From positions 160,359,933 through 160,423,932 of the forward strand of contig OZ020585.1 of assembly GCA_963971535.1 (NCBI GenBank): a stretch of DNA of 64,000 nucleotides. The letters run 5' to 3'. Below are positions 4,659 to 63,222 of the stretch, one piece after another. A program made the translations under genes and the position numbers. Origin of the DNA: Notolepis coatsorum (taxonomy: Eukaryota > Chordata > Actinopteri > Aulopiformes > Paralepididae). The notes under the pieces were generated by a model. It had not been told where the DNA came from. It saw only the letters and a program-made list of their open reading frames with translations, and searched no databases. Numbering within the stretch: the first letter of the stretch is position 1; each line of letters opens with the position of its first letter.

Positions 4659-4906
4659 GGGCTGCATGATTTTGGGAAATAATGTAATTGCGATTTTTCT
4701 GACGGATATTGCGATTGCGATTATAATAATTTTTTTAAGCAGCCCCACAGAGGTTTATTGTAAAATGCGGCTTGCATCTGGCCTACTCGTGGGTCTGTTC
4801 GGGACGCTTGAAGCCTTTCTCCAACGTGTTCGTGTTTCCGCATCTCTGATTGGCCAGGTCATGTGACATGTACGCCCAATCGTGGGACCGCAAGTTTGTC
4901 TTAGAG

Positions 4907-6478: not shown

Positions 6479-7863
6479 TCTTAGAGCATGGCAATAGAAC
6501 GCCTGCCCTGATTCCAAACTCTAACCTTAACCAACTTCGAAAGAGTCGCCTAAGCTTAACCAGTGATAAACTAGGCGTTAGGTAGTTTGCAGGCTGTTCG
6601 ACCCGGAAATAGGCGCAGAACTTGCCGTCCCACGATTGGCGCACATGTCACATGACCTGGCCAATCGGAGCACAAAACGGGAACCCGGAAACACGGACGC
6701 GTTGGAGAAAAGCTACACGCGTTCGGGACACCGTGCCTGAAAATGTTTCTTTTTACCTGGGAATCGATACTGATACCCAACGGTACCTTTTTTTCTGTAC
6801 TTTACTCTCCCTCTCTGAAGTCTAAACTTCACAACACACAATCTAAAACCCCTTACCTCCCTCTCCCAAACCGTTCCTACAACAATAACAACAACTTGCA
6901 AAGGCGATCTTGTATCTCAATGGGACTTCCTGGTTAAAAAAAAGAATAAAAAAATTTATTTTTATTTTTGCGATTTGCTAATTGCATCTAGGGCTGTCTT
7001 AAATACTTCGAAGCTTCGTTCGATGGCACAAGCTTCGAACATTAAAAAAAAAAAAAAAAATTACTTCGATTTGTGTGTGTGCGTGGGGCCATTGGGTGGG
7101 GCCGGGGGACAAATACACTGGAGGAAGTAACCCAGCTCAGCACTGCCCAAATTATATCATCACTATTGCCTGTTTGAAGGATATCATCCTCAAACACATA
7201 TACACCTACATGCCTTGTAGAATTCCACACATAAGAAAGAAAGATACTGGGATGAATAAACAAAATGGGAAATAAAATGTAGAAATGCATGCAATACATA
7301 AATAAATATGAATCTCCATATATGAAATAGAACATTTAGATAAGGTGCTACTGAGATGTTTTGGTGAGTTCTTTGTTTTTTTGTGGAAGTAGCCCTTCTT
7401 AAAAATGCATGAACATTCACTGATAATTGGTCTGTAGTGGAGTCTACATTGCCGGACCATGTAGAATCCGGACCTTGTAGACCAGGGGTCTCAAACTCAA
7501 TTTACCTGGGGGCCGCTGGAGGTAGAGTCTGGGTGAGGCTGGGCCGCATCAAATATTCCACAAAAAAAGGGTTTCAAGTATTCCAAAATAAAGTACAACT
7601 GATCCAATCTTCTCAATCTTTAGCAATAACAATTCAGAACATGAACAGTTCTTCAGAACATGAACGGTTCTTCAGAACATAGGCTTCTCAGTGGTGTCAG
7701 TGGACTCATCCACAGCTATGGAAATGCACTGTGCATTTTTTTTAATTCTATCACAAAGCTGTTTAATAATCACCAGCCAGTATTTCAGTTATTCTGGTTG
7801 CTGTGCGATCTGAGGGGGATTTGCTTTTGTTTGCCTTCAAACATGGTCTCAATCACTTCAGTC

Positions 7864-9270: not shown

Positions 9271-10525
9271 GGGAGAGTGAGGATTATATAGGATTGTTTT
9301 AAAGTGTGATGCTGTTTGTCATTTTAACAGCAGATACACTTTCTTAAATTCCATTGTCCCCGACAGAGCGTGTGACGGGGAGCTCGGACGGGATGTGTTT
9401 TGCTTGGTGTTATTATAGCATTAGCTGAAAAGCTAGCGTTAGCTACGTTACATCAAATCAGATGATGGCCTGTCCTTTCTCCAGGACCTGACACTGTCCG
9501 TCTATCAACAATAATGCACCCACGGTGAATCGTATTTGAGTCAAGTAGCTACTGACTAGCGTTAGCTGACTAATGTTATTAAATGTCAATGTGAAAACCT
9601 TGCAGGGAAGACGAGCTAGGTCAGCTTAGCTTGACAACGGTCCCCGTGGCTAAAGTTGGTGCTATTCATAATCCAGCAATAATGGCTGCAGACCTACAAG
9701 CAAAGTACAGCAAGTGCCAAGGGATAAGAGTCTGAGGTGGAGTCTCAAAAGAGAATGTTGATATTTATTTTGCATCGAAAATCACAACATTCGAACGTCA
9801 CTACTAGCCAGAGTCTCTGCGACTGCTACAGACTGGGTAGCGAGTGCAACACCGTCTAATGTCCGTGCGGATCATTGGAGTAGGGTATATCTGCAGTGCC
9901 GCAGCCCCATAAAACTTCCAACTCTCGCGCAACGACTCGGCAAACAGTTGGGCGCGGGCTGCATTAACACTAAACTTTGACGTCAAGTAGGGGGCCGCAA
10001 AATATCATCCCGCGGGCCGCAAATGGCTGCAAGTTTGAGACCCCTGTTGTAGACTGACATAATTCTGTGCATAGTTTAGTCTACACAGGCCATATTTCAA
10101 ATAATCTAAATCTTACTTCATTCATCTTAAACATTCTTGATTTGGGGGATTGGTAGTTCCCATGACATCTGAAGTTGTTCAAACGACAACAGCGATCCAC
10201 CTTGAATTAAATCACACAGCCGAGTGAAACCTTGTTGGCTGCGTCAGTCACGAAAGGGGCTACTTAATTCATTAATCCAATCCACTTTATTTATAGAGCA
10301 CATTTAAAAACAACAACGTTTACGAAAGTGCTGTACAAGTCCCACAACATAAGATTAAAAAGAAAATTATAATAAAAAAAAAAAAAAATCGAAGCTTCGA
10401 ATTAAAATCGAAGCTCGGCCCGAAGCTTCGATTGCCAAAAAGAAATTCGAAGGTCAGCCCTAATTGCATCATTTCAAATTTTGATTTAAAATCGATTAAT
10501 CGTTCAGCCCTAGTTGAGACCTATT

Positions 10526-20900: not shown

Positions 20901-23900
20901 AACCTATATTTTATAGTATAGCTATGGGTCTAATAATGCCGTAGAGTCTCAGTGACTTGCTGGTCAATGTGCAAAAAACAGATTATTTTTTCATCCGTAC
21001 ATTTCCGTTTTATACCGTTTTGAATATGAATATAGTTTGGTTGCTTCTGAGTCATTCCAGGGAAAAGACGCGAAAACTGTTTTTGTGTAATTCGATAAAC
21101 ACGTTGTCATTTTTCACCTGTTTATCGGATCTTCCTGAAATCAACGTTAGATCATAATTATTATCCTTCCTCGTGCAAGCATGCAATGTGGTTTAGACCG
21201 CCGCACTGGAATCGCATGCCTCCGTGACTATCGATTCCTCTTATCGCTGCCAGGTTTTTCCTACAGTTGTGTTGTGAAGGGCCAGATTAAAGCTGAGAAT
21301 CTACATTTATTGTTTTATATACATTGTATATTATTTATATATACACGGTATATCCCTTTAAACCTGCGTTCGAACCATAGTAATATTCGCTCTCCTTATT
21401 GGATAGCGCCCCAGGCGCCAGCCCGCAAGCCCCCAACGTCAGGTTCAAAGACAAGCTCAGGCATGTCGTAACATGCCCGGAGACAGCGTATTGATTCCAG
21501 ACAAGAACTGAGGTTTGGGACTAGATAATCACTTAAGTATATATACGGCGCAAGGTGCGCACAGCAGCACTTCGTTCATCAAGTTCATCCCGAGTCAACG
21601 GGTAGTGAAGTGAGCAACCGTGCGTTGAGAACACGTGCGAATAGAATAGTAAAGTGTCAGAGTTTAATGCAGTAACGTCAAGTTCGACCTAGTTTAATGT
21701 GAAGTAAATAGTCGTTCATTTATTGTATATCGTGCAACCACAGTTCGTTCGTGTGTAGCATTACCTAACGGTTCGTTCGTGTTAGCTAGTGGACCTTAGC
21801 CAGGGTGCGTGGCCTAAATACGTTGGTGCCAGTACCCGAGGAGGCCTAGTCGGAGAACCCGTTGGACATGTGCACAGGAGAACCAGCGGCGGCGATTGCA
21901 GAACCATTACTGGTTGGATTATATTGATTTGGAACGTGTTACCCGGAGAAGAGCATCGTTGATTTCCACTATCGTTTGGGATTTAACCTCGTGAGGATTT
22001 ACACTCGGGCTGGCCTCATGGACAGAGGCTGGCTAGCTATCATCGTTTGCTATCGAGCATTGGATTACAGTTATTGCTTTTGCTGCTGATCGTTGGATTT
22101 ACAAGGACTGGCTTCTGTACGTGAAGTCCCTTTATTCTTCATTGAATCAGACTGAGTATCCGAACATTCCTCTATCCTCTAGACCTTACAACTCTGAGAG
22201 GAACCCAGTGTCTCCAGGCGGTACCAGCGTTGCCTTCTATAATTGCTATTATACGCCAGGTGGCGTCAGCTTAGTACCCATCGTAGGAATCCTGCTATTC
22301 CCAGTGACTCATGCTACTGACTGACTTTATGCATATTCTTCGCCATACAAGCGCGACCCTAATTCTCATTCTGTAACCTAATGTTGCATAATAATAAAAT
22401 ACCCTCAAATACTATTTCTTTGTCAATGCCGTGTTATTATGAGTGTCCACCATCTATATTCGATGTACTGTCTGGCCAGTAATTAAAGTACATACCTAGC
22501 AGTGGTTTAATCTATCACAATCTTTAATACAGTCAGGGTTTTGTAACCCCTCAGTTACAAGTTGCGTAAGCGTTAGAGCTCGAAATTGCCTGGGTTTTGG
22601 TTAGGGATGCACCGATATGAAAATTTGCCACCGATACCGATTGTTCAACTAACACAATTGGCCGATACCGATATTTGTGGCAAAAAATATATATATTTGT
22701 AATTTTTTTTCTTTATTATTATTTTTTAATTTATATATATATTTTTGTAATTATTATAATTTTTTTAATGAAACTACTGTATATTTGTATGTGTATGTTT
22801 GTATTTGTAGGCCTCTTTACTTACTTAAAAAAAGGAAACATCAAGAAATATGTTTATGGTATTAATTCCACCATGCCATGTAGCACTATCCCTCTCCCAG
22901 TATGGTCTGGCGGCCTGCAGCTGGATACTATTGTCTCAACCAGAGCTCTCAACCAATGCAATAGAACAATTTTGATTGACAGTCGATTCGGCCAATTACG
23001 TCACACCGCTAGCACCCACCTCCTGCTGTTCTTACCACCAATCGGCAAGCGTTTATTCATTTTCTATTTCCGGGCATGCCGCCATTGATCTGCTTGCGAG
23101 AACCACAACAAGCTTACCGTAGCTAATACGTTAGCTCCCCGGCCCCGCCGACCAGCGCTCCACAGGATGACCAAACGAGGCATAATGATTTTACTGCAAC
23201 GAATGTTATAATAAAACAAAGCCTTTCTATACATTTGTCTGATTGAAAACTTTATTAACAGATTGCAGAATGGATTGGGTACAACTCTCGGGGCTCTATG
23301 AGCAACGGAAGGAACTGAGCTAGTATGAACGAGTAATGCTAGCTACTTGCTATGTTCGGGTAAATACTATGCTGATGTTATTGAACGTGTAACACTAACT
23401 ATATAACATTAAAGGGGCTATGCATTGCTATTCCTAGCACTATTTGGGCAACTTTACACAATTCCTCTGAGTCTATGTAACTGTAAGGTTTATTCCAAAA
23501 ATAATCATTGTTTTATATTTCTAATCAAGTACTCAAAACCAGCATTTTTCTGCCTCTGGATTTCAGGCTGTTATTGGCTTGGCTCCACCCATACTAGCAG
23601 AATGCTTTGAGTGACAGCCACCCACCAAATAGCTCCGCCCATCTCCCCGTCCTTCCCTCTCAGGTCTCAGGTGAAGGGTTTTTATTTCGACACGCAAAAC
23701 ATATACCGATTTTACTAACTAATACAACATGGCTGTACATTATGTTTGGGATCCAGAGAGCGACCCACAGTATGATTCAGAAGAAGAAGTCGATTTGCAA
23801 CAGCGAGGCTTGCAAATAGTTTCCGATTGGTAAGTTGATTACACCGTTAGTATAATGGCTTGCCGAAATAACGTTACTTACTTGATCGATAAATAGTAAA

Positions 23901-26900
23901 ACAATTACATTATATAATCCAAGCCACAAATATAAATAAACTCACCCACCGTCGAACACACAGCCAGCTTGCTTCGATAGCTTGCTATAAGTAACGTTAC
24001 CTTGTTTACCTCTGACTAGTTGTGTTTTTTTATTGAGCAGTTTTTAATTATGACTAGCTTGCTTCAATAGTTTGCTATAACGTTACTTTATAAAGAGCAG
24101 CAGTTATATACAGTGTACTTCTGTCGCGTCCCAAATAGTAGGTACAACTCCTTTGTTTAGCACCATCCAGGATGCCACCCCAGCATCAAAAAATGTATTA
24201 TATACCCCACCATCGAACACACACAGTAACGTTAGATTGTATTGATGATAACATACCTCACCCCACCCCCCAAGGTCCCCCCCCCCACACACACAGTGAA
24301 CGTAGCAACAGTTAATTAGTTAGCTGGCTAATTACGACATATCTACTTACTACTTGTGTCGGGTCCCGAATAGTAGGTACAACTCCTTTGTTTAGCACCA
24401 TCCAGGATGCCACCCCAGCATCAAAAAATTTATTATATACCCCACCGTCGAACACACACAGTAACGTTAGATTGTATTGATGATAACATACCTCACCCCA
24501 CCCCCCAAGGTTCCCCCCCACACACACACAGTGAACGTAGCAACAGTTAGTTAGTTAGTTGGCTAATTACGACATATCTACTTACTACTTGTGTCGGGTC
24601 CCGAATAGTAGGTACAACTCCTTTTGTTTAGCACCATCCAGGATGCCACCCCAGCATCAAAAAGACCTTGATTGACAACGTCTTCGGTGGAAAAATGTGC
24701 AGTACAAACCAGAGTATGAGACGTTGGGACAGAACTAGGAGGGTCCCCAAAAACGAACTTGGTCCATTGCTGGCGAAGTTCGGCATCCACGGGAAAAGCG
24801 TGCAAAGACGTATTAGTAGCTTTACAGCCAGGAACAGAACATGTTCTGCGGGGTTTGCTCATCGTGGAAGATATGCAAGTGACTGCACTCCTGTTTCTAG
24901 GTAGTGTACCTCTCTATTCTTGGTAGAATGGGGGCGGGCATTAGCTCCAACCACAGAGCCAATCGCATCACTGTGCGCTACCCACAGCCCGAATGACGTG
25001 ACTCAGGCCTTCAAATCAAAATGACCCGATTTACTAGAGGACGAAAGGGGCTGGGCTGAATCGGAGCAATCCGCCAATATGGTATTTAGACCCTAAAACA
25101 CATTGATACGAACTCCTATTACTATAATACAATGCTAGAGACTGAAAAATGACATTTATAATGCATAGCCCCTTTAATGCCACAAAACGAATGTTTGTCA
25201 TTTTAACAGCAGATACTTTCTTAAATGCCATCTTCCCGAGAGAGGGGTGTTGACGGCTCTGATGGGTTCGCTTGGTTGTGTTATTAGCATTGAACAGCTA
25301 ACCGAAAGCTAGCGTTAACTAACGTTAAAGGTTTAGCCATAACGTTACCTTGGCTAAAGTTGGGGCTATTCATAATCCAGCAATAATGGCTGCAGACCTG
25401 CAAGCAAAGTACAGCAAGTTGGCAAAGGAGTATTCCAACGTAAATCACATTTTCACCAGTAACGTTAGTCTTTCCATCTCCCGGTAGCTCATGCTAGCTA
25501 ACCTAGCTCACGTTAGCGTCGTCACTGAGCGACCACCTCGCGTACACAATTAATGACATGTTGCGGACAGCCATATCGGTGACAATGTTTAGCTTTTAGT
25601 GCCAAATGATAAGAGTCTGAAGCGGAGTCTCAAAAAGAGAATGTTGAATATTTAGTAGTAACTTTGATGCAGTAGCTTGTGTGTGTGGGGGACTGGGGGC
25701 GGCGTTGTGCAGGACGCGACTGAACTTTTTTTTGCCTTTTGACGCGACACAAATTGATGGATATTTATCGGCTACTGCCATCGGCACATTCGAGCTTATC
25801 GGCCGATAGGCCGATTGCAGTCAACAAGGCACTTATCGGCCGATACCGATACCCGACCGATACATCGGTGCACCACTAGTTTTGGTCATATGCTCCCGAA
25901 ATGCTCCCGCTGTTTGGCTGCTTCTATCTGCAGTGAAAACTACTCCAATGTTTTAGAACCTAGTCATTGATTTAATTCAGGGTAACCTAAGATTAGCCGC
26001 GGAGCTAACGCTAGCTAACCAAGCGGATACAGACGCACCAATCACGCAACAGAGAGAGATAACAGCTGACTGGGCTCAGGTAGGGTGGGGGCGAGCGGGG
26101 ACTCCGGGGAGGGAGCCGTGTGTGTGCGCGCGCTGGTCTTCAGAAAGAACAGATGACAGAGGAGTCAGGAATTACGACCTGTTCAATGCAACTACAGTTC
26201 AATAGATTAAATTAGTTTAAGATATTGAACTGTAGGGGCGCCCCAGTGGCGAACCACATAGCGCGCTCAGCCGCGACACGGCCGACCCGGGTTCGACTCC
26301 CGAACCCGTCGTTATTTGCCGAATGTCTTCCCCCCACTCTGTCTCCCATTCCTCCTCTGTCTCTCTCTACTGGACTGCCCAGTAGCAATAAAGCGATAAA
26401 ACGCCAAAAAAATGTATCGTAAAAAAATATATATATATATATATTGAACTGTATTCGGGCGGTCAGGTGGCGTAGCGGAGATTGCGCTCGTCACCAATGC
26501 AGGAGATGCTGGGTTCGAGCCCAGCTCTCGGCGTTACTACCAGCTTGGCTGGCCGTTCATACTAATACAATTGGCAGTATTAGGGGGTGGGAAAGCTGGC
26601 GGGTGGGAATCTGCCGTTGTGGACAGCGACGCCTACAGGTCAGGTCTCTGCGCTTGCTAAGCGGGGCAGGACTTGGTGGAGATAGCGTGCCCTCCCACGC
26701 GTTACACTTCACCAATGAGAGTCCTCGCTGCCAAGTGGAAAGAGCGTCACTGGCTTGACGGCGCATGTCTCGGAGGAAGCGTGCGTTCGACATCAGGACA
26801 CCCTTGTACCGACTCGTGGGAGAACATGCGTACAACAACCAGGTAGGGGAGGGGGGGAATTGGCACAACGACTAAATTGGGACGGGGAGAAAATCAGAGA

Positions 26901-32900: not shown

Positions 32901-35900
32901 CTTTCTCCACGCATATTTATTTCTGGAGCATTTCTTTATCCACTCTGGTTGGATGGTGTATTGTACTTGTGCTGTATAATAACAATACATTTTAATCTAA
33001 TCTCGTTTTGAGATGAGTCGCAAATTGCTTCCTGTTGAATGGATCGGTTGAGTGAAATGCAGACTCTACTTTCCCCCGTTTACGCTTGTCTTCACAGCTT
33101 AGAATATGACACGCCCACTGATGATGTCACGGTTCGCACGGAAAAACCAAAAACATTTATGTTCCAGCTGAGCACCAACTTTTCAAGTTCCGAACCAATT
33201 AATCCCAGTGTGTGAACTCACCGGCCGGTTCGAGATTAGGTTCTGGAACCGGCACGGAGCCCAGCCGGTGGGAAAGGCCTATTGGGAGACCTTTTAGCTG
33301 GGGCCATATTTGTCATAAACTTCATAGAGTCCCACAATCTTTTTCATAAATAGAGATGGTATGACTTCTACTGACCAGCAGTGTAACTAATAAGAGTAGG
33401 ATATGTACAGATATAGATATAGTAAGGGACTATGTGCAGGTAAGTACAGACTGGTGTGGATAGGTATATATGCAGTGTGAATACATATATATGTAGTATA
33501 TACAGCATTATAGTACAGTAAGGAGTCCCACCCTAACCTAACCTTAGTATACACTAAATTATGGTATTACCGGTAACTGTAAATATTGCTTCACAAACAA
33601 ATTCAAATGTTAACAATGTTTTCATTAAACAGCCTCAATCAAATACATAGGCCCTAATATTAATAAGATATATGTGTAAATACTACAGTACATGGTGTCC
33701 TGGACCTACATTATGTAAACAGCTTGAATCCGGCTCATGTTTGTTTGACGGCTGCTGCACCTTGTTTGCTCTCCTCTCAGGCGAGGTGCTGACATTCCTG
33801 GACTCCCATGTTGAATGCAACGTGGGTTGGCTGGAGCCCCTGCTGGAGAGAGTGTACCTGGACCGGAGGAAGGTGGCCTGTCCTGTCATCGAAGTCATCA
33901 GCGACAAGGATATGAGGTGAGGCCAATAGGGCTGAGCCCAAACGTTCGAATGTTCGGACCTTACGTTGGCATTCGAATTCTGAATCAACATTTCTTCACA
34001 GAGCGGCTACGTGGCGTAGTGGGCAAGGCGCTTGCCACGAATGCGGAGACGCTGGGCTCGCCTGTTCGAGCCCAGCGCTCCACATTGCTTTCAGTTTAGC
34101 TGGTCGTTCATACTAATACACATTGGCCGTATTAGGGGGTGGGAAACTGATGGGTGGGGATCGGGCGTTGTGGACAGCGACTCCTACAGGTCGGTTGGTG
34201 CGCCTGCGCAGTAGAATCAGGAAGTGTCGGGGGCAGCGTGAGCCTCCCACACGTTACTCCTCGCCACTGAGAGATCGAGCTGCGCAGGTGAAAAGATGCG
34301 ACTGCTGTTACCTCAAGTACCGGAGGGGACTTGTGCTATGTATGACTTAGTCCACATTGCAGCCGGCTTGTGGGAGGCAAGAAACAGCGTTCGTGACAGG
34401 GGAGGGTTGAATTGGATGATACGAAATTGGGATGGGAGAAAATATAGAAAATGGGAGAAAAAGTGGATAAAAAAAAAACTTTTCTTCACAGTTGCAGATA
34501 AAGATTAGGCTACACTAATATTATACTATTATAGTATATGACTCGTCGTAAAAATTTAAATAAAACATTTATCATAAATGATGTAGCCTATCTGCATCCG
34601 CTTGGCACTCGGCGCTCCATCAAGACGTCACCATCACTTTCGTACCAACCGTGCCCTTATTGGATTATTTATGTCGACGAAACAGATGAGTTATATTCAT
34701 TAAAGAGTGTTGATTTAATTAAAAAAATACTTATTCAAATTGAGGATTTAGTTTGAAGATACTTTTTTTTGTAATATTTTTATTTATTTAATTAAAAACG
34801 AAGGTTTGAACATCCGTTCGAAAAACCCTGACGAAGTTCGAAGCCCAAAAACGGGCTTCGGGGACAGCTCTAGATGCCAACGGTCAACGGCACACTGGGA
34901 CTAACCCCTCCATGTGGCCACAGCAACACTGGGACTAACCCCTCCATGTGGCAACACACTGTGGCTAACTCCTCCATGTGGCAACACACTGGGACTAACC
35001 CCTCCATGTGGCAACACACTGGGACTAACCCCTCCATGTGGCAACACACTGGGACTAACCCCTCCAAGTGGACGTGGCAGTTCATTGGTCGTCGCTGGTC
35101 GGCCAAGCTGTGATGCCAGAACTCATCATAATATTCATCTAAATAGAGTCCGACCCTAACCTAAAATTGAGTCCCACCTAACTTAAAATAGAGTCCAACC
35201 CTCACCTAAAATAGAGTCCGACCCTCACCTCCAACTCAACACCAGTAAGACCAAGGAGCTGGTGGTGGACTTCCGGAGGGGCAAGAAGAGGCCCCCCCCC
35301 GATTCCCATCACCATCCGAGGGGTGGAGGTGGAGGTGGTGGACTCATATAAGTTCCTTGGGGTACACCTGAACAATAAACTGGACTGGTCGGATAACACA
35401 GAGGCCCTCTACAGGAAGGGACAGAGCAGGCTGTTCTTCCTGAGGAGACTCGGGTCCTTCAACGTGTGCAATAGACTGCTGCAGTCATTTTACCAGTCTG
35501 TAGTGGCCAGCGTCCTCTTCTATGCTGTGGCATGTTGGGGAGGCTACATCAACTCAAGGGACACCAACAAGCTGGTGAGGAAGGCTAGCTCTGTGGTGGG
35601 AGTCGAGCTACCTAGACTAGAGGTGATGGCAGAGAGGGGGATGAGAAGGAAGCTGGCTGCCATCATGGAGAACCCCTACCACCCCCTCTACGACGAGCTA
35701 GTCAAGATGAGAAGCTCGTTCAGCCACAGACTCATACCCCCCCGACACTCAACTAACCGCCTCGGACAGTCCTTCATACCAGCGGCCATCAGGCTCCACA
35801 ACAGTGGGCAGCGACTAGCGGCCTCCAGGCTCCACAACAGGGGGCAGCGACTGCTGCCAGACATTGACCTAGGACTAATAGGAACCCAAGGAGGACAATA

Positions 35901-38900
35901 ACACTACCTTAGGCATACTGCACCTTATGTGGATACTGTGATACTGTGAATAATGTATATTTCAGTGGATACTGTGATACTGTGAATAATGTATATTTCA
36001 GTAGATAGTAAATTATAACACTACCTTATGCATACTGCACCTTATGTGACACTGAATACTGTGAATATATTTTTCAGTTAGTTAGATAGTAAATTATATT
36101 GACATTTGTTTACTACCTGTACCCCCCCCCCCCTTCCCCCATGCTGCTATGATGCCTGAATTTCCCCAAGGGGATCAATAAAGGAATATCTTATCTTAAA
36201 ATAGAGTCCGACCCTAACCTAAAATAGAGTCCGACCCTAACCTAAAATAGAGTCCGACCCTAACCTAAAATAGAGTCCGACCCTAACCTAAAATAGAGTC
36301 CGACCCTAACCTAAAATAGAGTCCGACCCTAACCTAAAATAGAGTCCGACCCTAACCTAAAATAGAGTCCGACCCTAACCTAAAATAGAGTCCGACCCTA
36401 ACCTAAAATAGAGTCCGACCCTAACCTAAAAGAGTCCGACCCTAACCTAAAAGAGTCCGACCCTAACCTAAAAGAGTCCGACCCTAACCTAAAAGAGTCC
36501 GACCCTAACCTAAAATAGAGTCCGACCCTAACCTAAAATAGAGTCCGACCCTAACCTAAAATAGAGTCCGACCCTAACCTAAAATAGAGTCCGACCTAAC
36601 CTAAAATAGAGTCCCACCCTAACCTAAAACAGAGTCCCACCCTCACCTAAAATAGAGAAGATATTCTTTTACTTTGCAGCTTGGCCGTTCAATGACAACC
36701 CAGTTTGATGAGTTTATTCGGACGCCCATTAGCTGTTACCAAGGAAACTACTATTCTTCATATCCAAACATCAAAAACACAGTCTTCTGTCAATGCACCC
36801 AAACCCCCAACCATGGCTCTTACCCTTTACTATCGGGGCTCGGGGGGTAGAGCAGTCGTCTGGTAATCCGGAGGTTCCTGGTTCGATTCCCGTGTCGGAA
36901 GTGTCCCTGAGCAAGACACTTAACCCCTAACTGCTCCCAATGAGCAAGTTGGCACCATTGGTGTGTGAAAATTAGGGATGCACCGAAATTTCGGCTTTCG
37001 GCCGAAAGAGTTTTTTCACCGAAAATATATCACCGAAACAGAAACAACCTGTAACCTAACGCGTGTTGTTGTGATGATGTCGCGCTGTCGGGAGTCGCGC
37101 TGTTTCTATGTAAACTCTGCGTGCAACGCGTCCAATAAATGCGTCTTTAACATCCTTATTTACTATATGCCCGTCGCGGTTAATCACCGAGTGATCTAAT
37201 ATGCATATTCTTCAGAGCGAGAGGGGGGGGGATAGTGTTTCTCACATTGACGCTGTCTGTCGTTGATAATATAATCTTTCTCGAGCATACACGTCGCGCG
37301 TCTACTGTGCCGAGTCAAGAGAGCGCATTCATCTGAGGACTAGAAAGGTGCGCTCAGTAGAGCACAGATGTCCGCCGCGGCAGCCAGAGAAAAGATGGAA
37401 TTAATGTACTGTATGCATTCAGAAGTGCTGAATAAATGTTTTATGGACCCATAATAGTGATTATTTATTATTTAAGTTAAGTTTAGCCATAATCATATAT
37501 TTTTCCATAATCATAATGTTCCACAACATTGGTAAAAAAAAATTCTATTCTATGAATAATTTTCGGCCTTTCGGCATTCGGTTTTCGGCCAACTGTTTTC
37601 TATTTTCGGTATCGGTTTCGGCCAAGAATTTCCCATTCGGTGCATCCCTAGTGAAAATGTGAGGAACACATTGTAATGTGCTTTGGATAAAAGCGCTATA
37701 TAAATGCAGCCATTTACCATTTATCCCCAAATACAATAGAAAATCATGAATTATTAGTAATAAAATCAGTATTTCAGGCTTAAATTAGCTGATTCCTCTA
37801 GTGGAGTAATGTGAAGGGTCCTGCCTCCAATACCGCTTCTGGTCCTGGTTCTGTTCTGGAGTCTCAGAACCTTGGTGCTATCCATATCCGTCTGAATATA
37901 CCTGCATATAATCCTTCTATATACCTACTTATACACCTGCTTATAACCCATATAACTCTGTATGATAGCATGTACAGTAATGCTGTATATACCATGCATA
38001 TAATTTGTACATATCTGTAGATACTATATCTATATGTGTACATACTACATACCTGCATATAATCCTAAATCTGTACATATCCCTTACTACCATAGTGTCT
38101 TTATACCTCTTATCACTGTACATATTAATACTACAACTCTGTACATACATCTGATTAGCACTATTACTCAGTAGTACTAATTTATATATTTTATACCCAG
38201 TTTAATCACCTGTATATTACTATTGCACTTTACTGTTACATTTACACTCTGGTTGGATGACAAACCTATTTTCGTTGTACTGTACTTGTGCTGTATGATG
38301 ACAATACATTTGAATGTAATCTAGGAGACGGTAGGAGATGTGATAACTTCACTAACAGAATTCAGGACAATGTCGTCATAACATCAAGTTCTTCTCTGTC
38401 GTCTGTTCCCTCCTCCCAGTTACGTGCTGGTCGACAACTTCCAGAGAGGGATCTTCAAATGGCCGTTGGTGTTTGGCTGGAGCACTTTAACGGAAGACCA
38501 CATCAAGAAGAACAACATGAGCGTCTCAGATCCCATCAGGTAACACCTGTGATACATGAGGGTGTCAGATCCCATCAGGTACTAGGGGTGCACCGATATG
38601 AAAATTGGCCACCGATACCGATACCGATTGTTCAACTAACACAATCGGCCGATACCGATACTTGTGGCAAAAAATAAGTATTTTAAATTTTTTTTAATAT
38701 TTTCTTTAATTTTTTTTTTTTATTTTTTTTTATGAAACTACTGTATATTTGTATGTGTGTTTGTATTTGTAGGCCTCTTTACTTACTTAAAAAAAGGAAA
38801 CATCAAGAAATATGTTTATGGTATCACTGATCCCTCTCCCAGTATCGTCTGGCGGCCTGCAGAGGGATACTATTTTCTCAACCAGAGCTTTCAACCAATG

Positions 38901-41900
38901 CAATGGAACCATTCTGGCGGCCTGCAGCGGGATACTATTCTCTCAACCAGAGCTTTCAACCAATGCAATGGAACCATTTTGATTGACAGTCGATTCGGCC
39001 AATTACGCCACACCGCTAGCACCCACCTCCTGCTGTTCTTACCACCAATCGGCAAGCGTTTATTCATTTTCTACTTCGGGGCATGCCGCCATTGATCTGC
39101 TTGCGAGAATGCGAGTCAAACTCAGAACCACAACAAGCTAATACGTTAGCTGCCCGGCAGTGCCCGCCGACCAGCGCGCTCCACAGGATGGCCAAACGAG
39201 ACACAATGATTTTACTGCAACAAATGTTATAATAAAACAAAGCCTTTCTATACATTTGTCTGGTTGAAAACTTTATTAACAGATTGCAGAATGTGTAGTT
39301 GGGTACGGAATGAGCAACGGAATGGAACCGAGCTATGAACGGCTTGCTTGCTATCTTCGGGTAAATACTATGCTGATGTAATTGAACGTGTAACTAACTA
39401 TATAACGTTAATGCCACAAAACGAATGTTTGTGTCATTTTAACAGCAGATACTTTCTTAAATGCCATCCTCCCGACAGAGCGGTGTTGATGGGGAGCTCT
39501 GATGGGTTCCCTTGGTTGTGTTATTAGCATTGAACAGCTAACCGAAAGCTAGCGTTAACTAATGTTAAAGGTTTAGCCATAACGTTACGTTCGCTAAAGT
39601 TGGGGCTATTCATAATCCAGCAATAATGGCTGCAGACCTGCAAGCAAAGTACAGCAAGTTGGCAAAGGAGTATTCCAACGTAAATCACATTTTCACCAGT
39701 AACGTTAGTCTTCTGCCTCCCGGCTATGAACGGACTCGGAGTAATGCCTTGCTGCTATGGGTAATAATAATATGCTGATGTTATTGTCCGTGTAACACTA
39801 ACTATATAACGTTAATGCCACAAAACGAATGCCTTGTTAATCATAAATAGTAACTTTGATGCAGTAGCTTGTGTGTGTGTGTGGGGGACAGCGGGCGTTG
39901 TGCAGGTAGGTCGCGAGTGAATTCTATTTTTTTTTGCCTTTTGACGCTACACAAATTGATGGTTAGTTATCGGCGACTGCTATCGGCACATTTGAGCTTA
40001 TCGGCCGATAGGCCGATAGCAGTCAACAAGGCACTTATCGGCCGATACCGATACCCGACCGATATATCGGTGCACCCCTATCAGGTACTGTCAGTAACAC
40101 TGTGATACATGAGGGTGTCAGATCCCATCAGGTACTGTCAGTAACACTGTGATACATGAGGGTTTCAGATCCCATCAGGTACTGTCAGTAACACTGTGAT
40201 ACATGAGGGTGTCAGATCCCATCAGCTACTGTCAGTAACACTGTGATACATGAGGGTGTCAGATCCCATCCGGTACCTTCAGTAACACTGTGATACATGA
40301 GGGTGTCAGATCCCATCCGGTACCTTCAGTAACACTGTGATACATGAGGGTGTCAGATCCCATCCGGTACTTTCAGTAACACTGATACATGAGGGTTTCA
40401 GATCCAATCAGGTACTGTCAGTAACACTGTGATACATGAGGGTTTCAGATCCCACCCCGTACTGTCAGTAACACTGTGATACATGAGGGTGTCAGATCCC
40501 ATCCGGTACCTTCAGTAACACTGTGATACATGAGGGTGGCAGATCCCATCCGGTACCTTCAGTAACACTGTGATACATGAGGGTTTCAGATCCCATCCGG
40601 TACGCGTGTATGCTTTCCCCAACTCAGTTGTGTTTCCGCGTTCCCGTTTTGCGCTCTGATTGGCCAGGTCATGTGACATGTGCGCCAAACGTGGGACAGC
40701 AAGTTATGCGCCTATTTCCGGGTCTAACAGCCTGCAAACTACCTGGCATTCTATCGCCATGCTCTAAGACAAACTCTAACCTTAACCAACTTCGAAAGAG
40801 TGCCTAAGCTTAACCGGCGAAAGAAGGGCAGGCGTTCTATCGCCATGCTCTAAGACAAACTCTAACCTTAACCAACTTCGAAAGAGCGCCTAAGCTTAAC
40901 CAGTGTAGAAACTTGCGGTCCCACGATTGGCGCACATGTCACATGACTAGAAACGTGCGGGCCAATCAGACGCGGAAACACAACTGCGTTGGGTAAAGTA
41001 TTCACGCATCCGGTACCTTCAGTAACACTGTGATACATGAGGGTATTACACACATCAGGAATATAATCCTAGCATGGAGTCACATCCCCTTCTTCATGTC
41101 TCAAGGCTGCATCTCCTTCTCACTGTCTGTTTCATGACTGAAGGATCGAAGACGTCAAATAAATAAGGATAGTTGTTTTCACCTAGTCAGCATATTTCAT
41201 GAACAATACAAATGTAGCTAGTCCATTAGTACATGGTAGTAATACCACTGTAAACTCAGGATTACAGGTGCAGTATCGGGAAAGGGGGTTTGTTTATATT
41301 TGCATAACCTGCGATTAGTGTAGAAAATGTATCATTCTGAGGTGCCGTGAACCAAACGTAGTCCTTCTTTGACTGTTGGTGAACAGAACTGCTGTCGTTG
41401 TAAAGAACCGCAGTGAAACAGCAACTTTTCAGGCAGGACCCAGTGTCCCCCTAAGGATCTGTTTATTCAGTTGTAAACCCTTTACAGCATAGGTGTCAAA
41501 AGCATGGCCCGCGGGCCAAATGTGGCCCGCCACGTCATTTGATGTGGCCCCCCAAGAGCCCTGGTAAAAAAAAATAGAGAAAAAAAATTTAAACATCAAT
41601 CTTGGGTTAAAAAATAGCGGCGTTAAAATAATTGTGGGTTAATGAGTTAATCAAGCTTTAACTTTGACAGCCTTAGTTATTACACATTCTTACACATACA
41701 TGTATGTTGAACATCTGAGGTATTGATGAAGTAACAAAGGAAAAAAGCCAAAAGCACTTACTCCTCAGACATTCTTTGACAATTTTACAGCCCAAAATAC
41801 AAAAAAGATCCAGGCGGAATAGGTAACAAAGGGTTGAAGAAATATTGTCTGAACTGTCGGATGCAAACTGGCTGTGTGACATAACCGAGCATCTCGCTCA

Positions 41901-44900
41901 ATTGAATAAGAAGCTGTAGGGAAGCAAACAAGTCCCACCCAAAACTTGACCAATATAGTTGTGAACTGAGCCAACCCTTATTTAGTTATTTTTGAGTACA
42001 GTTACAGTTGTGTGTTCATGCAGACACATAATAGCAATTTCATTACGAATTGAAAATGGGGGACCCTGATGTAAACAAGTCGAAAGTCTTTCTCTGGTCT
42101 GCATCCCCTTAACAATTGTGTGTATTGAGCTGTACTGTACTGTACCCATTCTGCAATCTGTTAATTAAAGTTAATTAAACTATCTTCCATTAGTTGGATG
42201 TATGGCCTCTGCAAGGTTGTGTGCAGCCATTTGTTTTTGTAACATCTGCTACATCTGTCCCACGTGTTCTTTGCAGCTCACAGTTGTTAGTTCTGCCCCT
42301 CTTGACTGTGACAAAAAGGTTTTGAACAAACTTAATGTCATAGCTTGTATTTGATGATATTCTTCTTTGTTATTTACTTGAATGGTTTGATCATTGATTG
42401 ATGGAGTAATATGGGATTCTGATAAACTAAAATTACATGTTAAAATAACATAAGCTAACATATATTTTTACATCTATGCAAATGCATATGCAATATGTAT
42501 AACTTGAATAAGTAATAAATACAGAAACAACATGTTTAACAATATGTAAATGAGTAGCTACATTTATTTTACATTACATTAACATTTATACGGTCTTTGG
42601 CCCTTTGAGGGCAACCATAATGCTGATGTGGCCCTCTGTGAAAATGAGTTTGACACCCCTGCTTTACAGCCTTTAAATAACCCTTTACAGCCTTAAGATA
42701 ACCTGTTACATCATTTAAATAACCCTTTACAGCCTTTAAATAACCCTTACAGCCTTGTTTCTTTAACAAAATGGGTTGCAGGCCCTCGTCTGGTAGATCA
42801 GTAATATGTTTTAATGAGCCTGGGTCACATGACAACAGTAGTAATATGTGTTAATGAGCCTGGGTCACATGACAACAGTAGTAATATTTTTGAAAATCTA
42901 ATTTCGGTCCCTGATTGAAAGGTTTGAGAAACTATCCTTTTAGAACAGACAGAATTACCAGCATTCTAGTTTCTTCTCTTTTGTCCTGAAAAGAGTGAGT
43001 GTTGTTGATGTTTTGTGTACTTATTATATTTATACTTACTAATTATACCCAAAAAAAAGAGCGCTGATGGAGATGGTCGCAGTCTTTCAAGCTCTCACTC
43101 AACCTTGCGTTTTGCTATGTTTTTTTACTATACCATTCTTGTATTCATTGATGGTTCTTGATTGTGCACTGTTGAGTCTGAGCTCGAAACACAAGAATGT
43201 CAGTACCTGCAATGCCCCCTGTATTGTTGTGTATTTGACAAATGAAGAACTTGAACACAACCCTCTCTTCGACCCTACAGATGTCCAGTTATGGCCGGAG
43301 GTCTCTTCTCTATCGACAAGAAGTACTTCTATGAGCTGGGAGCATACGATCCTGGACTGGATGTGTGGGGGGGTGAGAACATGGAGATCTCATTCAAGGT
43401 AAATCAACATAAACAGAAGCTGATGTTGACGTCAGACTCCTTCAAGTCCACGGCTTTCTGGGCCATTTAGTGAATTCATATTCACTAAATGGCCCAGAAA
43501 GCCGTTCATAAATATCTCTGCGCATCCCGGCGGAAAACCGGATGAATTAGACGCGAGGAAATAATGTGTCATGAAAGCGTTGTAGTCCTAAGACAGAGGA
43601 GACCCAGGGCTTTCAATGGACATCGAAATTTCATAAAACTACACTACCCAGCTCACACCAGCCGCTGTCAAAGCTGCTGAAAATATTTTTTGCGAAAGAT
43701 TCTGACGTTATTTTTGTGATTATATCTCACGGGTCGGACAAACCTGTACGTTATTGCCATAAAATAGGCCGTAGTTTGTTCTTTACATTTCTGTGAACAT
43801 CTAGGAAAAAACTTCTCAATCTGCGGAACTATTTACATAATAAAAATTCACGGTTTTTGCTGCCCTGTCAGGGATGCCTGGTGGTACTAAATCCAGATTG
43901 AACTCTGCCATTGGAAAGAGGAGATTTGGCCCGATCCATAGATGTATGACTTGGCCATAATAAGGTCATTTATAGGCCTGATATTCTATATTCTATATTC
44001 ATATTTCAAATTGCATGGGTCCGGGTGGCAAAAAGAGAGTACACCACAGAGAGGTAATACACCACAGTAGGGCTGCACGATTCTTGCTCAAATGTGAATC
44101 ACGGTTTTTCTCTAAGCATTGAGATCACGATTCTCTCACACGATTCTTATTTTTTCAATAAAATCATTTATTGCACTCTTTCTTAACACTTTGACGACCG
44201 ATGGGCTTAGTCTAATTAGGTAGTGGCTAGAGGACCGGGGAATGTAAACAAACATGTGGGTTTTCTAACCGCTATATCTATACTTTATAGTGTTGCTATC
44301 TGTCCATTCTCATTGTCAATTGAGTGCATAAACCGTCCCTTCAGAATGGCTTAAAGAAAATAAAAACCATCGGTAGGTTGTCATTTTATAGCGCCGTGAA
44401 TATAAGCTTTATCGCAGATTTCGTATCATCTATTTTCTGGAAAGCTAGTTATAGAGCTAAAGGCTACTAACGTTATATTCAACGGCATTTCCGTTGTATA
44501 TATGCTAATGAAATAACAAACTGCTTATGATCCGGACTATCCCAGAGCATCTATGGATGAAAGGGGGGCGGCGGGGGACGTCGATAGTATTATCGATTAC
44601 CAATACAGTGTCCGTGTAAGTAGCCACATTCACAGATCGATTGCTAGCGTTGCACAGCAAGCTCCAATCCGGCTATAAATTAGGTGATAAATGTCTTACC
44701 GTCAGCCCGTGTGATACCCGGCAGCATTTCCCCGTTATCGATCGGCATCTGGTAGATCGATATGTCCATTGGTTGATGATACATCCCCTTATTCCATGGT
44801 GAAATCTCCGCTTCGAAACGTGATACACGGTGCATGCTGTTGGTTTGTGATCAGAGTAATATGATACTCCGTTGGAGGGTAAAAAAAAATTCCATTTGCC

Positions 44901-46373
44901 CACAATGATAGTGCAGCGATGGCGCCCCTAAGAGGATCTGGCCGGTATTGCATGTTGCCGATTCCACAGAGGCGGGTAGATCTGCAGAGACGATCGGGGA
45001 TCTTGATCTGGTTATTAATATGGAATAAAACAATAACAACTTGCCACGGCTATATACGTGCCTCTGGTCCACAACGCATGGCACCGAAACACGTATATAT
45101 ATATGTGGCTGGTCCTTAAAGTGTTAAACAAACAACATATCAAATTGTTTGACTTAAACTTAAAAGTATCTTGTAACACAATAACTCAAGTCAGAATCGT
45201 CATCATTTAAAAAAGTTAAGTAAAAAGTTAAAAAAAGAGAATTGTATAAAAAAAAAACGTCATTTAGAAATGAGATTGCATAGGTCTATGAATCGAGATC
45301 GTGATTTTTTTTTCGATTAATCGTGCAGCCCTACACCACAGAGAGTACACCACAGAGGGATAACACAAAGGTCATTCACCTGCTTTGTCATTGTGAACAG
45401 ATCTGGATGTGCGGCGGTGAGATCGAGATCATCCCCTGCTCCCGGGTCGGACACATCTTCCGTGGCCAGAACCCCTACAAGTTCCCCAAGGACCGGCAGA
45501 AGACTGTGGAGCGGAACCTGGCGCGCGTGGCGGAGGTCTGGCTGGACGACTACAAGGACCTGTTCTACGGACACGGGTACCACCACCTGCTGGACAAGAG
45601 AGTGGACATCGGAGACCTGGCGCAGCAGACGCAGCTGAGGAAGACGCTGGGCTGCAAGAGCTTCAAGTGGTACCTGGACAACGTCTACCCCGACATGGAT
45701 GCCCCTCTGGCCAAAGCCCAGGGCCTGGTAGGTGCATTCACTAACAATGCAAGGGAGGCTGCGCTCTGTTATTCTTAGAACCGCTTCTGGTTTTTGGTAA
45801 CTAGTTCCAAGTTAGTAAAATACCCACATTTGTTTAAAGGGGACATGCATTGCTATTCCTTGCACTATTTGGGCAACTTTACACAATTCCTGTGAGTCTA
45901 TTGAACACATCTGTAAGGTTTATTTAAAAACAAATCATTGTTTTATATTTCTAATGGAGTACTCAAAAGCATCATTTTCCAGCCGCAGGATTTCAGGCTG
46001 TTATTGGATGGGCCCATAAGCGCTTTCAGTGACAGTCACCCACACAGCGTAATAAATACGAGAGAGAGCGAGAGAGAGAGAGATGCCCGACACACACGCA
46101 GTCAAGTTTGTGTGTGTCCCCGACGAGGGAGAGAGATGGCGCACACACATTTACACACACTTCTGCAGTCCCTCCCGCCGTCTCTCTCTATCTCTCTCTC
46201 CTCGCTCGTTCTCTGCCTGTCAAACCCCGTTTGAGGAAGTGTCTGGTTACACTATGCCTACGTCCCCGACACACACGCAGTCAAGTTTGTGTGTGTGTGT
46301 GTGTCCGACGAGGGAGAGAGATGGCGCACACACATTTACACACACTTCTGCAGTCCCTCCCGCCGTCCCTCTC

Positions 46374-62369: not shown

Positions 62370-63222
62370 ATTAGACCTTGTCTTCTGGTCTGGTTCACTA
62401 GTCTGTACAGAACCTCTAAATGGACCACCTTGTCTTCTGGTCTGGTTCACTAGTCAGTACAGACCTTCTGCTAAATGGACCACCTTGTCTTCTGGTCTGG
62501 TTCACTAGTCAGTACAGAACCTCTAAATGGACCACCTTGGCTTCTGGTCTGGTTCACTAGTCAGTACAGACCTTCTGCTAAATGGACCACCTTGTCTTCT
62601 GGTCTGGTTCACTAGTCAGTACAGAACCTCTAAATGGACCACCTTGGCTTCTGGTCTGGTTCACTAGTCTGTACAGAACCTCTAAATGGACCACCTTGTC
62701 TTCTGGTCTGGTTCACTAGTCTGTACAGAACCTCTAAATTGACCACCTTGTCTTCTGGTCTGGTTCACTAGTCAGTACAGACCTCTAAATTGACCACCTT
62801 GTCTTCTGGTCTGGTTCACTAGTCAGTACAGAACCTCTAAATGGACCACCTTGTCTTCTGGTCTGGTTCACTAGTCTGTACAGAACCTCTAAATTGACCA
62901 CATTGTCTTCTGGTCTGGTTCACTAGTCAGTACAGAACCTCTAAATGGACCACCTTGTCTTCTGGTCTGGTTCACTAGTCTGTACAGAACCTCTAAATTG
63001 ACCACATTGTCTTCTGGTCTGGTTCACTAGTCTGTACAGAACCTCTAAATTGACCACATTGTCTTCTGGTCTGGTTCACTACTCGGTACAGAACCTCTGC
63101 TAAATGGACCACCTTGTCTTCTGGTCTGGTTCACTACTCGGTACAGAACCTCTGCTAAATGGACCACCTTGTCTTCTGGTCTGGTTCACTACTCGGTACA
63201 GACCTTCTGCTAAATGGACCAC
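62370..63222. repeat. Minisatellite, 52-55-bp unit
   Basis: About 16 copies of GGACCACCTTGTCTTCTGGT / CTGGTTCACTAGTCAGTACA / GAACCTCTAAAT, in two alternating length variants (TTCTGCTAAAT or CTCTAAAT). Confidence 0.95.

Follow-up and report, generated by a model that had tools for sequence, protein, structure and literature searches.

The window analysed here is a 64,000-nucleotide stretch of the Notolepis coatsorum genome (contig OZ020585.1, positions 160,359,933 to 160,423,932), belonging to a 3.42-Gb assembly, and it carries part of a polypeptide N-acetylgalactosaminyltransferase (GalNAc-transferase) gene, which we take to be GALNT5-like. At the 3' end of one of its exons, the exon tail and its donor form the first unit of a 47-bp minisatellite that runs on into the intron and is interrupted by two DNA transposons. 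Exon a (33781-33916), exon b (38420-38539, + strand) and exon c, the next exon (43281-43398, + strand, 118 nt), make one open frame when spliced, and the acceptor of a fourth, exon d, ends at 45400. The protein encoded by exons a-d has GalNAc-T1 as its best PDB match (E 1.3e-76), all 16 distinct PDB sequences matched at E up to 0.001 are polypeptide N-acetylgalactosaminyltransferases, and Pfam PF00535 and PF02709 both score above their cut-offs. Exon b, which carries the array boundary, is flanked by a good acceptor, CCCTCCTCCCAG, upstream and by the phase 2 donor CAG/GTAACA downstream (the solidus marks the splice junction); its 3' boundary at 38539 reads ...CCCATCAG/GTAACACC.

The whole array spans 38515-41044 and consists of the exon-borne unit (E0), 12 intronic copies and a stub, all on the + strand. 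E0 (38515-38553, 39 bp) joins the last 25 bp of the exon to the first 14 bp of the intron, true donor included, as the initial annotation had proposed in placing the start of the array on the exon end and its donor. A full unit comprises the 25-bp exon tail (ACATGAGCGTCTCAGATCCCATCAG) and 22 bp of intron start; the annotation had rightly seen a piece of exon in the units, but had given it 13 bp in a smaller array, and the exon-end unit that it had recognised is without 9 bp that the other units have. Aligned to those units, E0 shows one 9-bp gap, placeable between GTA repeats, and a one-base indel. The first intronic unit (unit 1) is split between 38554-38582, with a decoy donor after 38578, and 40081-40106, which begins with the second copy of a target-site duplication and has a decoy donor after 40084. 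Units 2-11 follow at 40107-40574, nine of them of 47 bp, and unit 12 is again split, between 40575-40603 (decoy donor CCG/GTACGC after 40599) and 41008-41034 (second duplication copy, decoy donor after 41012), before a 10-bp stub of a 13th unit (41035-41044) ends the array. Tandem Repeats Finder (TRF) called the 47-bp array over 40080-40603, with 11.2 copies; anchoring on the motif added the exon copy and the two split units. Unit length is 47 bp in 11 of the 12 intronic copies and 45 bp in unit 7, with a mean pairwise identity of 93% across the 12. The window as a whole (1-64000) is rich in minisatellites, with 74 TRF rows, some overlapping, including 36197-36657 (23 bp x 20) and 62375-63222 (52 bp x 16).

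All intronic copies resemble the end of the exon closely. They match its 25-base tail at 23 positions (four copies), 22 (six), 21 (one) or 20 (one), whereas no more than 18 of 25 matched in any of 20,000 circular units shuffled base by base, and a chance overlap between exon and array was therefore rejected. Elsewhere in the window, the best match to the consensus 25-mer of the array was 17/25 (+ strand) or 16/25 (- strand). A 91-bp junction query against the 3.42-Gb assembly gave 11 matches, all at this locus among the best candidates scored, which led us to reject copying of the array from another genomic place. As exon b is GalNAc-transferase coding sequence that aligns to GalNAc-T1 and -T2 without a gap over its end, and as the junction query matches only this locus, the exon is the likely source of the array; the same coding sequence and gap-free alignment suggest that it probably predates the array.

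Two sites distinguish the intronic copies from the exon: at the first, all 12 carry G for C, and at the second, eight carry G and four T, with C found at both sites only in E0. The extra 9 bp are likewise present in all 12 copies and absent from E0. Since the two differing sites and the extra 9 bp are common to the whole intronic set, these copies probably descend from a single copy, and the exon copy, judging from the unit sequences, is not homogenised with them. The 40-aa exon peptide, used as a paralogue query, matched only exon b (E up to 10; three of three first-look candidates scored), so no paralogue was available as an outgroup. Comparing exons a-d, each with short flanks, to the window brought out an array match for exon b alone (exon d having a provisional 3' end, and the comparison covering just these four exons of the gene). 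The unit pattern had no occurrence in viral_contigs or in genome_contigs (0 and 0), both collections without fish.

The array is interrupted twice. Both inserts are DNA transposons. Insert 1 (38583-40080) carries the inverted ends TAGGGGTGCACCGATAT and is flanked by an 8-bp target-site duplication, TCAGGTAC; insert 2 (40604-41007) carries the inverted ends GCGTG... and is flanked by one of 9 bp (or 10 bp), ATCCGGTAC. From duplication length, with no transposase sought, we presume the former to be hAT-like and the latter Mutator-like. Removing each insert together with one duplication copy restores a unit of exactly 47 bp, from which both inserts appear younger than the array, in line with the annotation's view that two transposons had landed in it later. 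A donor motif lies inside both duplications, so that each insertion would have created one extra decoy donor, CAG/GT (40084) and CCG/GT (41012) respectively. Both duplications (38575-38582 and 40595-40603) end on the same unit base, the C of GGTAC, though the transposons are unrelated; this is either coincidence or a common target preference. Relatives of insert 1 lie in pieces in the window at 22602-23412 and 25174-25878 (80-95% identical), with shorter ones at 9317-9724, and pieces related to insert 2 lie at 4806-4897 and 6515-6720 (75-98% identical). The ends of insert 2 repeat each other in inverted orientation for about 100 bp (79%), and inside it lies a direct duplication of 71 bp (40745-40815 and 40831-40901, 97% identical).

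With the two duplication copies counted, the array presents 13 decoy GTs at 14 in-register places, agreeing with the dozen or so downstream decoys first proposed. These decoy donors come after positions 38578, 40084, 40131, 40178, 40272, 40319, 40366, 40411, 40458, 40505, 40552, 40599 and 41012. Over the 12 copies, the in-register donor is CAG/GT in four, CCG/GT in six and CCC/GT in one, and the GT is lost in unit 4. Later units had been said to keep CATCAGGTAC or CATCCGGTAC, which holds for most of them, but units 4, 8 and 9 carry neither. Donors were scored with a vertebrate matrix and by pairing to the U1 RNA end. The true donor, CAG/GTAACA, scores 6.88 with a U1 pairing of -8.0. Decoys of the CAG type score 4.42 (CAG/GTACTG) or 3.53 (CAG/GTACTA) with a pairing of -7.1, those of the CCG type 3.88 (CCG/GTACCT) or 3.41 (CCG/GTACTT) with a pairing of -4.3, and CCC/GTACTG scores -1.67 with a pairing of -0.9; in all, 12 of the 13 in-register decoys fall below the true donor. 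Ranked among the 3,717 + strand GTs of the window, the true donor reaches the 98th percentile, CAG/GTACTG the 93rd and CCG/GTACCT the 91st. By these scores the decoys are weaker than the true donor, yet, because they stand at the 91st-93rd percentile, they are not negligible.

Within the unit, five of the nine donor columns are variable, as against six of the 38 positions elsewhere (Fisher p 0.02, uncorrected). As the donor columns vary more and one copy of the 12 is without a GT, selection does not appear to be keeping the decoys. The suggestion that they alter donor choice is consequently not supported, given the lower scores of 12 of the 13, the lost GT and the more variable donor columns. 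RNA structure was also considered as a way to conceal the decoys. The mean probability of being unpaired is 0.14-0.42 at 12 of the 13 (40458 left out), 0.42 at the true donor and 0.39 at the median of 150 random GTs; pairing is greater in CCG copies (0.14-0.26) than in CAG copies (0.20-0.42). This signal is weak and we did not build on it.

Passing over the true donor has an immediate consequence. Read-through of 38539, in phase 2, gives AGG TAA, and this in-frame TAA (38541-38543, + strand) is the same stop for every downstream donor. A longer exon, as first envisaged, is thus possible as RNA, but it cannot give a longer protein. A stop codon upstream of exon junctions as a rule leads to degradation of the mRNA (nonsense-mediated decay). 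With the stop at 38541-38543 and at least two exon junctions downstream of it, a decoy-spliced product would be truncated in the catalytic region and its mRNA probably degraded.

Arrays of this kind are already known from lancelets and humans. Lancelet 'mirages' are tandem repeats that span exon/intron boundaries, and two reports describe them as unstable in length and regular splicing as undisturbed, the latter checked by reverse-transcription PCR for the globins (PMC3087553, PMC3902484). The genes named there are Adh3, the globins BflGb6 and BflGb9, and TnC, with a similar case in PGBD5; for BflGb6, concerted turnover inside the array is described, with the boundary copies left out (PMC3087553, PMC3902484). 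Like the mirages, the present array consists of minisatellite-like boundary copies that are homogenised among themselves and in many cases carry AG/GT signals. Its copies span the boundary in tandem (25 bp of exon and 22 bp of intron, 12 times after E0), many though not all carry the splice dinucleotide (GT in 11 of 12), and the 93% identity, together with the two C sites and the missing 9 bp that are peculiar to E0, is consistent with concerted turnover from which the boundary copy is excluded. It differs in belonging to a fish GalNAc-transferase gene, in having 12 copies of a 5' boundary and in harbouring two transposons.

In human ABCA7, the variable number tandem repeat (VNTR) of intron 18 has a 25-bp unit that starts with the exon 18 donor, and 12 to about 427 units are found in people (PMC5954066). 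There, as here with E0 (CAG/GTAACA at 38539), the first GT of the array is the canonical donor. The donor of the next ABCA7 unit is used at a low level, breaking the frame, with one-unit retention given as 2 +/- 1% and independent of length, which supports a low leak. The ABCA7 unit begins at the GT, and the portion of the report available describes no exon piece in it, whereas about half of each unit here is exon-derived. The human IFI6 (6-16) minisatellite (Turri 1995, as cited in PMC4526556) also places repeat units able to serve as donors at an exon end, and two downstream units are reported to be used; in the fish gene such use would meet a stop at once, and productive use of downstream units is unlikely because of that in-frame stop. 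Intron formation through tandem duplication of proto-splice sites or boundary repeats, as outlined in PMC2891723 and PMC2812944, similarly involves a tandem duplication that includes AG/GT and lies close to, or at, the end of an exon; a new intron or exon is not evident here. More generally, human donors have on average 36 decoys within 250 nt each; a large collection of RNA-seq data contains rare junctions for about 7% of the unannotated ones, and proximity favours their use (PMC8964760). Among the listings and passages covered by our literature searches, which left out most subscription papers, no such array was named in a GALNT gene or at a fish exon boundary.

We consider it probable that this minisatellite, like the mirages, grew from the exon/intron boundary and is a tolerated by-product with low-level leaky splicing, not a regulatory device. 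We infer the following order of events. First, the final 25 bp of the exon and the opening bases of the intron would have been duplicated in tandem to give one copy, which array turnover then multiplied and homogenised to 12 while the exon copy stayed apart, and two DNA transposons would afterwards have inserted into array units. The donor at 38539 would be used nearly always, with the decoys leaking at a low level, and any leak would be unproductive, the extension opening with an in-frame TAA and being followed by at least two exon junctions. The array is thus most likely to cause slight leaky splicing with little effect on the main splice. Several points weigh against this interpretation. 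The decoy at the insert 2 junction (CCG/GTACGC, 40599) scores 7.14, slightly above the true donor, albeit with poor U1 pairing (-4.3), and the true donor itself is without G at +5. Insert 1 brings a donor-like CAG/GTAGGT (39905; 39903-39911), within this intron and on the strand of the gene, which outscores the true donor and every decoy at 10.47 with a pairing of -11.8. The variability test is also a small one, with an uncorrected p value, and any variants spread through homogenisation lack independence. Lastly, longer VNTRs in ABCA7 went with more exon 19 skipping (p 3.24e-13) and with lower expression (PMC5954066).

This last observation, made on an array that also starts at a donor, lends itself to a different explanation, in which U1 binding by the copies, or their interference with how the next exon is recognised, would let the number of units set the level of productive mRNA through unproductive splicing or skipping of 43281-43398. 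The U1 pairing of the CAG copies is near that of the true donor (-7.1 vs -8.0), the stop follows immediately, and skipping the 118-nt exon c would shift the frame. On the other hand, variation is greater in the donor columns than in the rest of the unit, one copy has no GT, and retention of the ABCA7 unit is independent of length (PMC5954066). We regard such a regulatory role as possible but unlikely. Somewhat less likely again is that the array acts as a length-dependent dimmer of the glycosyltransferase, in which more units would mean more U1 titration or more unproductive splicing, the gene's own donor having escaped its copies via the 9-bp difference. That difference, between GTA repeats, leaves GTAACA in E0, while eight of the 12 units have or had GTACTG-like starts; the unit donor start is GTAC throughout and scores lower than GTAACA.

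That some tissues splice from later units and so obtain a longer exon, as reported for IFI6, seems very doubtful: the GT is kept in 11 of the 12 copies and the decoy at 40599 outscores the true donor, but the remaining 12 score lower and the immediate TAA past 38539 makes a productive longer protein impossible. We give hardly any credence to an origin of the array elsewhere, with a chance exon overlap or an exon end taken from the array; the weakly conserved 25-bp tail, with few residues in common with GalNAc-T1 and -T2 (P and R, or P and I), would allow it, but the 20-23 matches of 25 against at most 18 in the shuffles, a register that runs on into the intron, a junction query with no other place among the best candidates scored and the gap-free exon end all argue against it. 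Misassembly of the copies is just as improbable, since tandem arrays are difficult to assemble but point differences and two inserts with distinct target-site duplications are hardly artefactual, and only the unit number could err.

Taken alone, the array changes nothing in what is known of splicing. It provides a clear boundary-spanning minisatellite beyond lancelets and humans, with a legible history leading from exon tail to array to two transposon landings. Because nearly the same exon sequence precedes the true donor and the majority of the decoys, the locus would make a natural test of donor competition.

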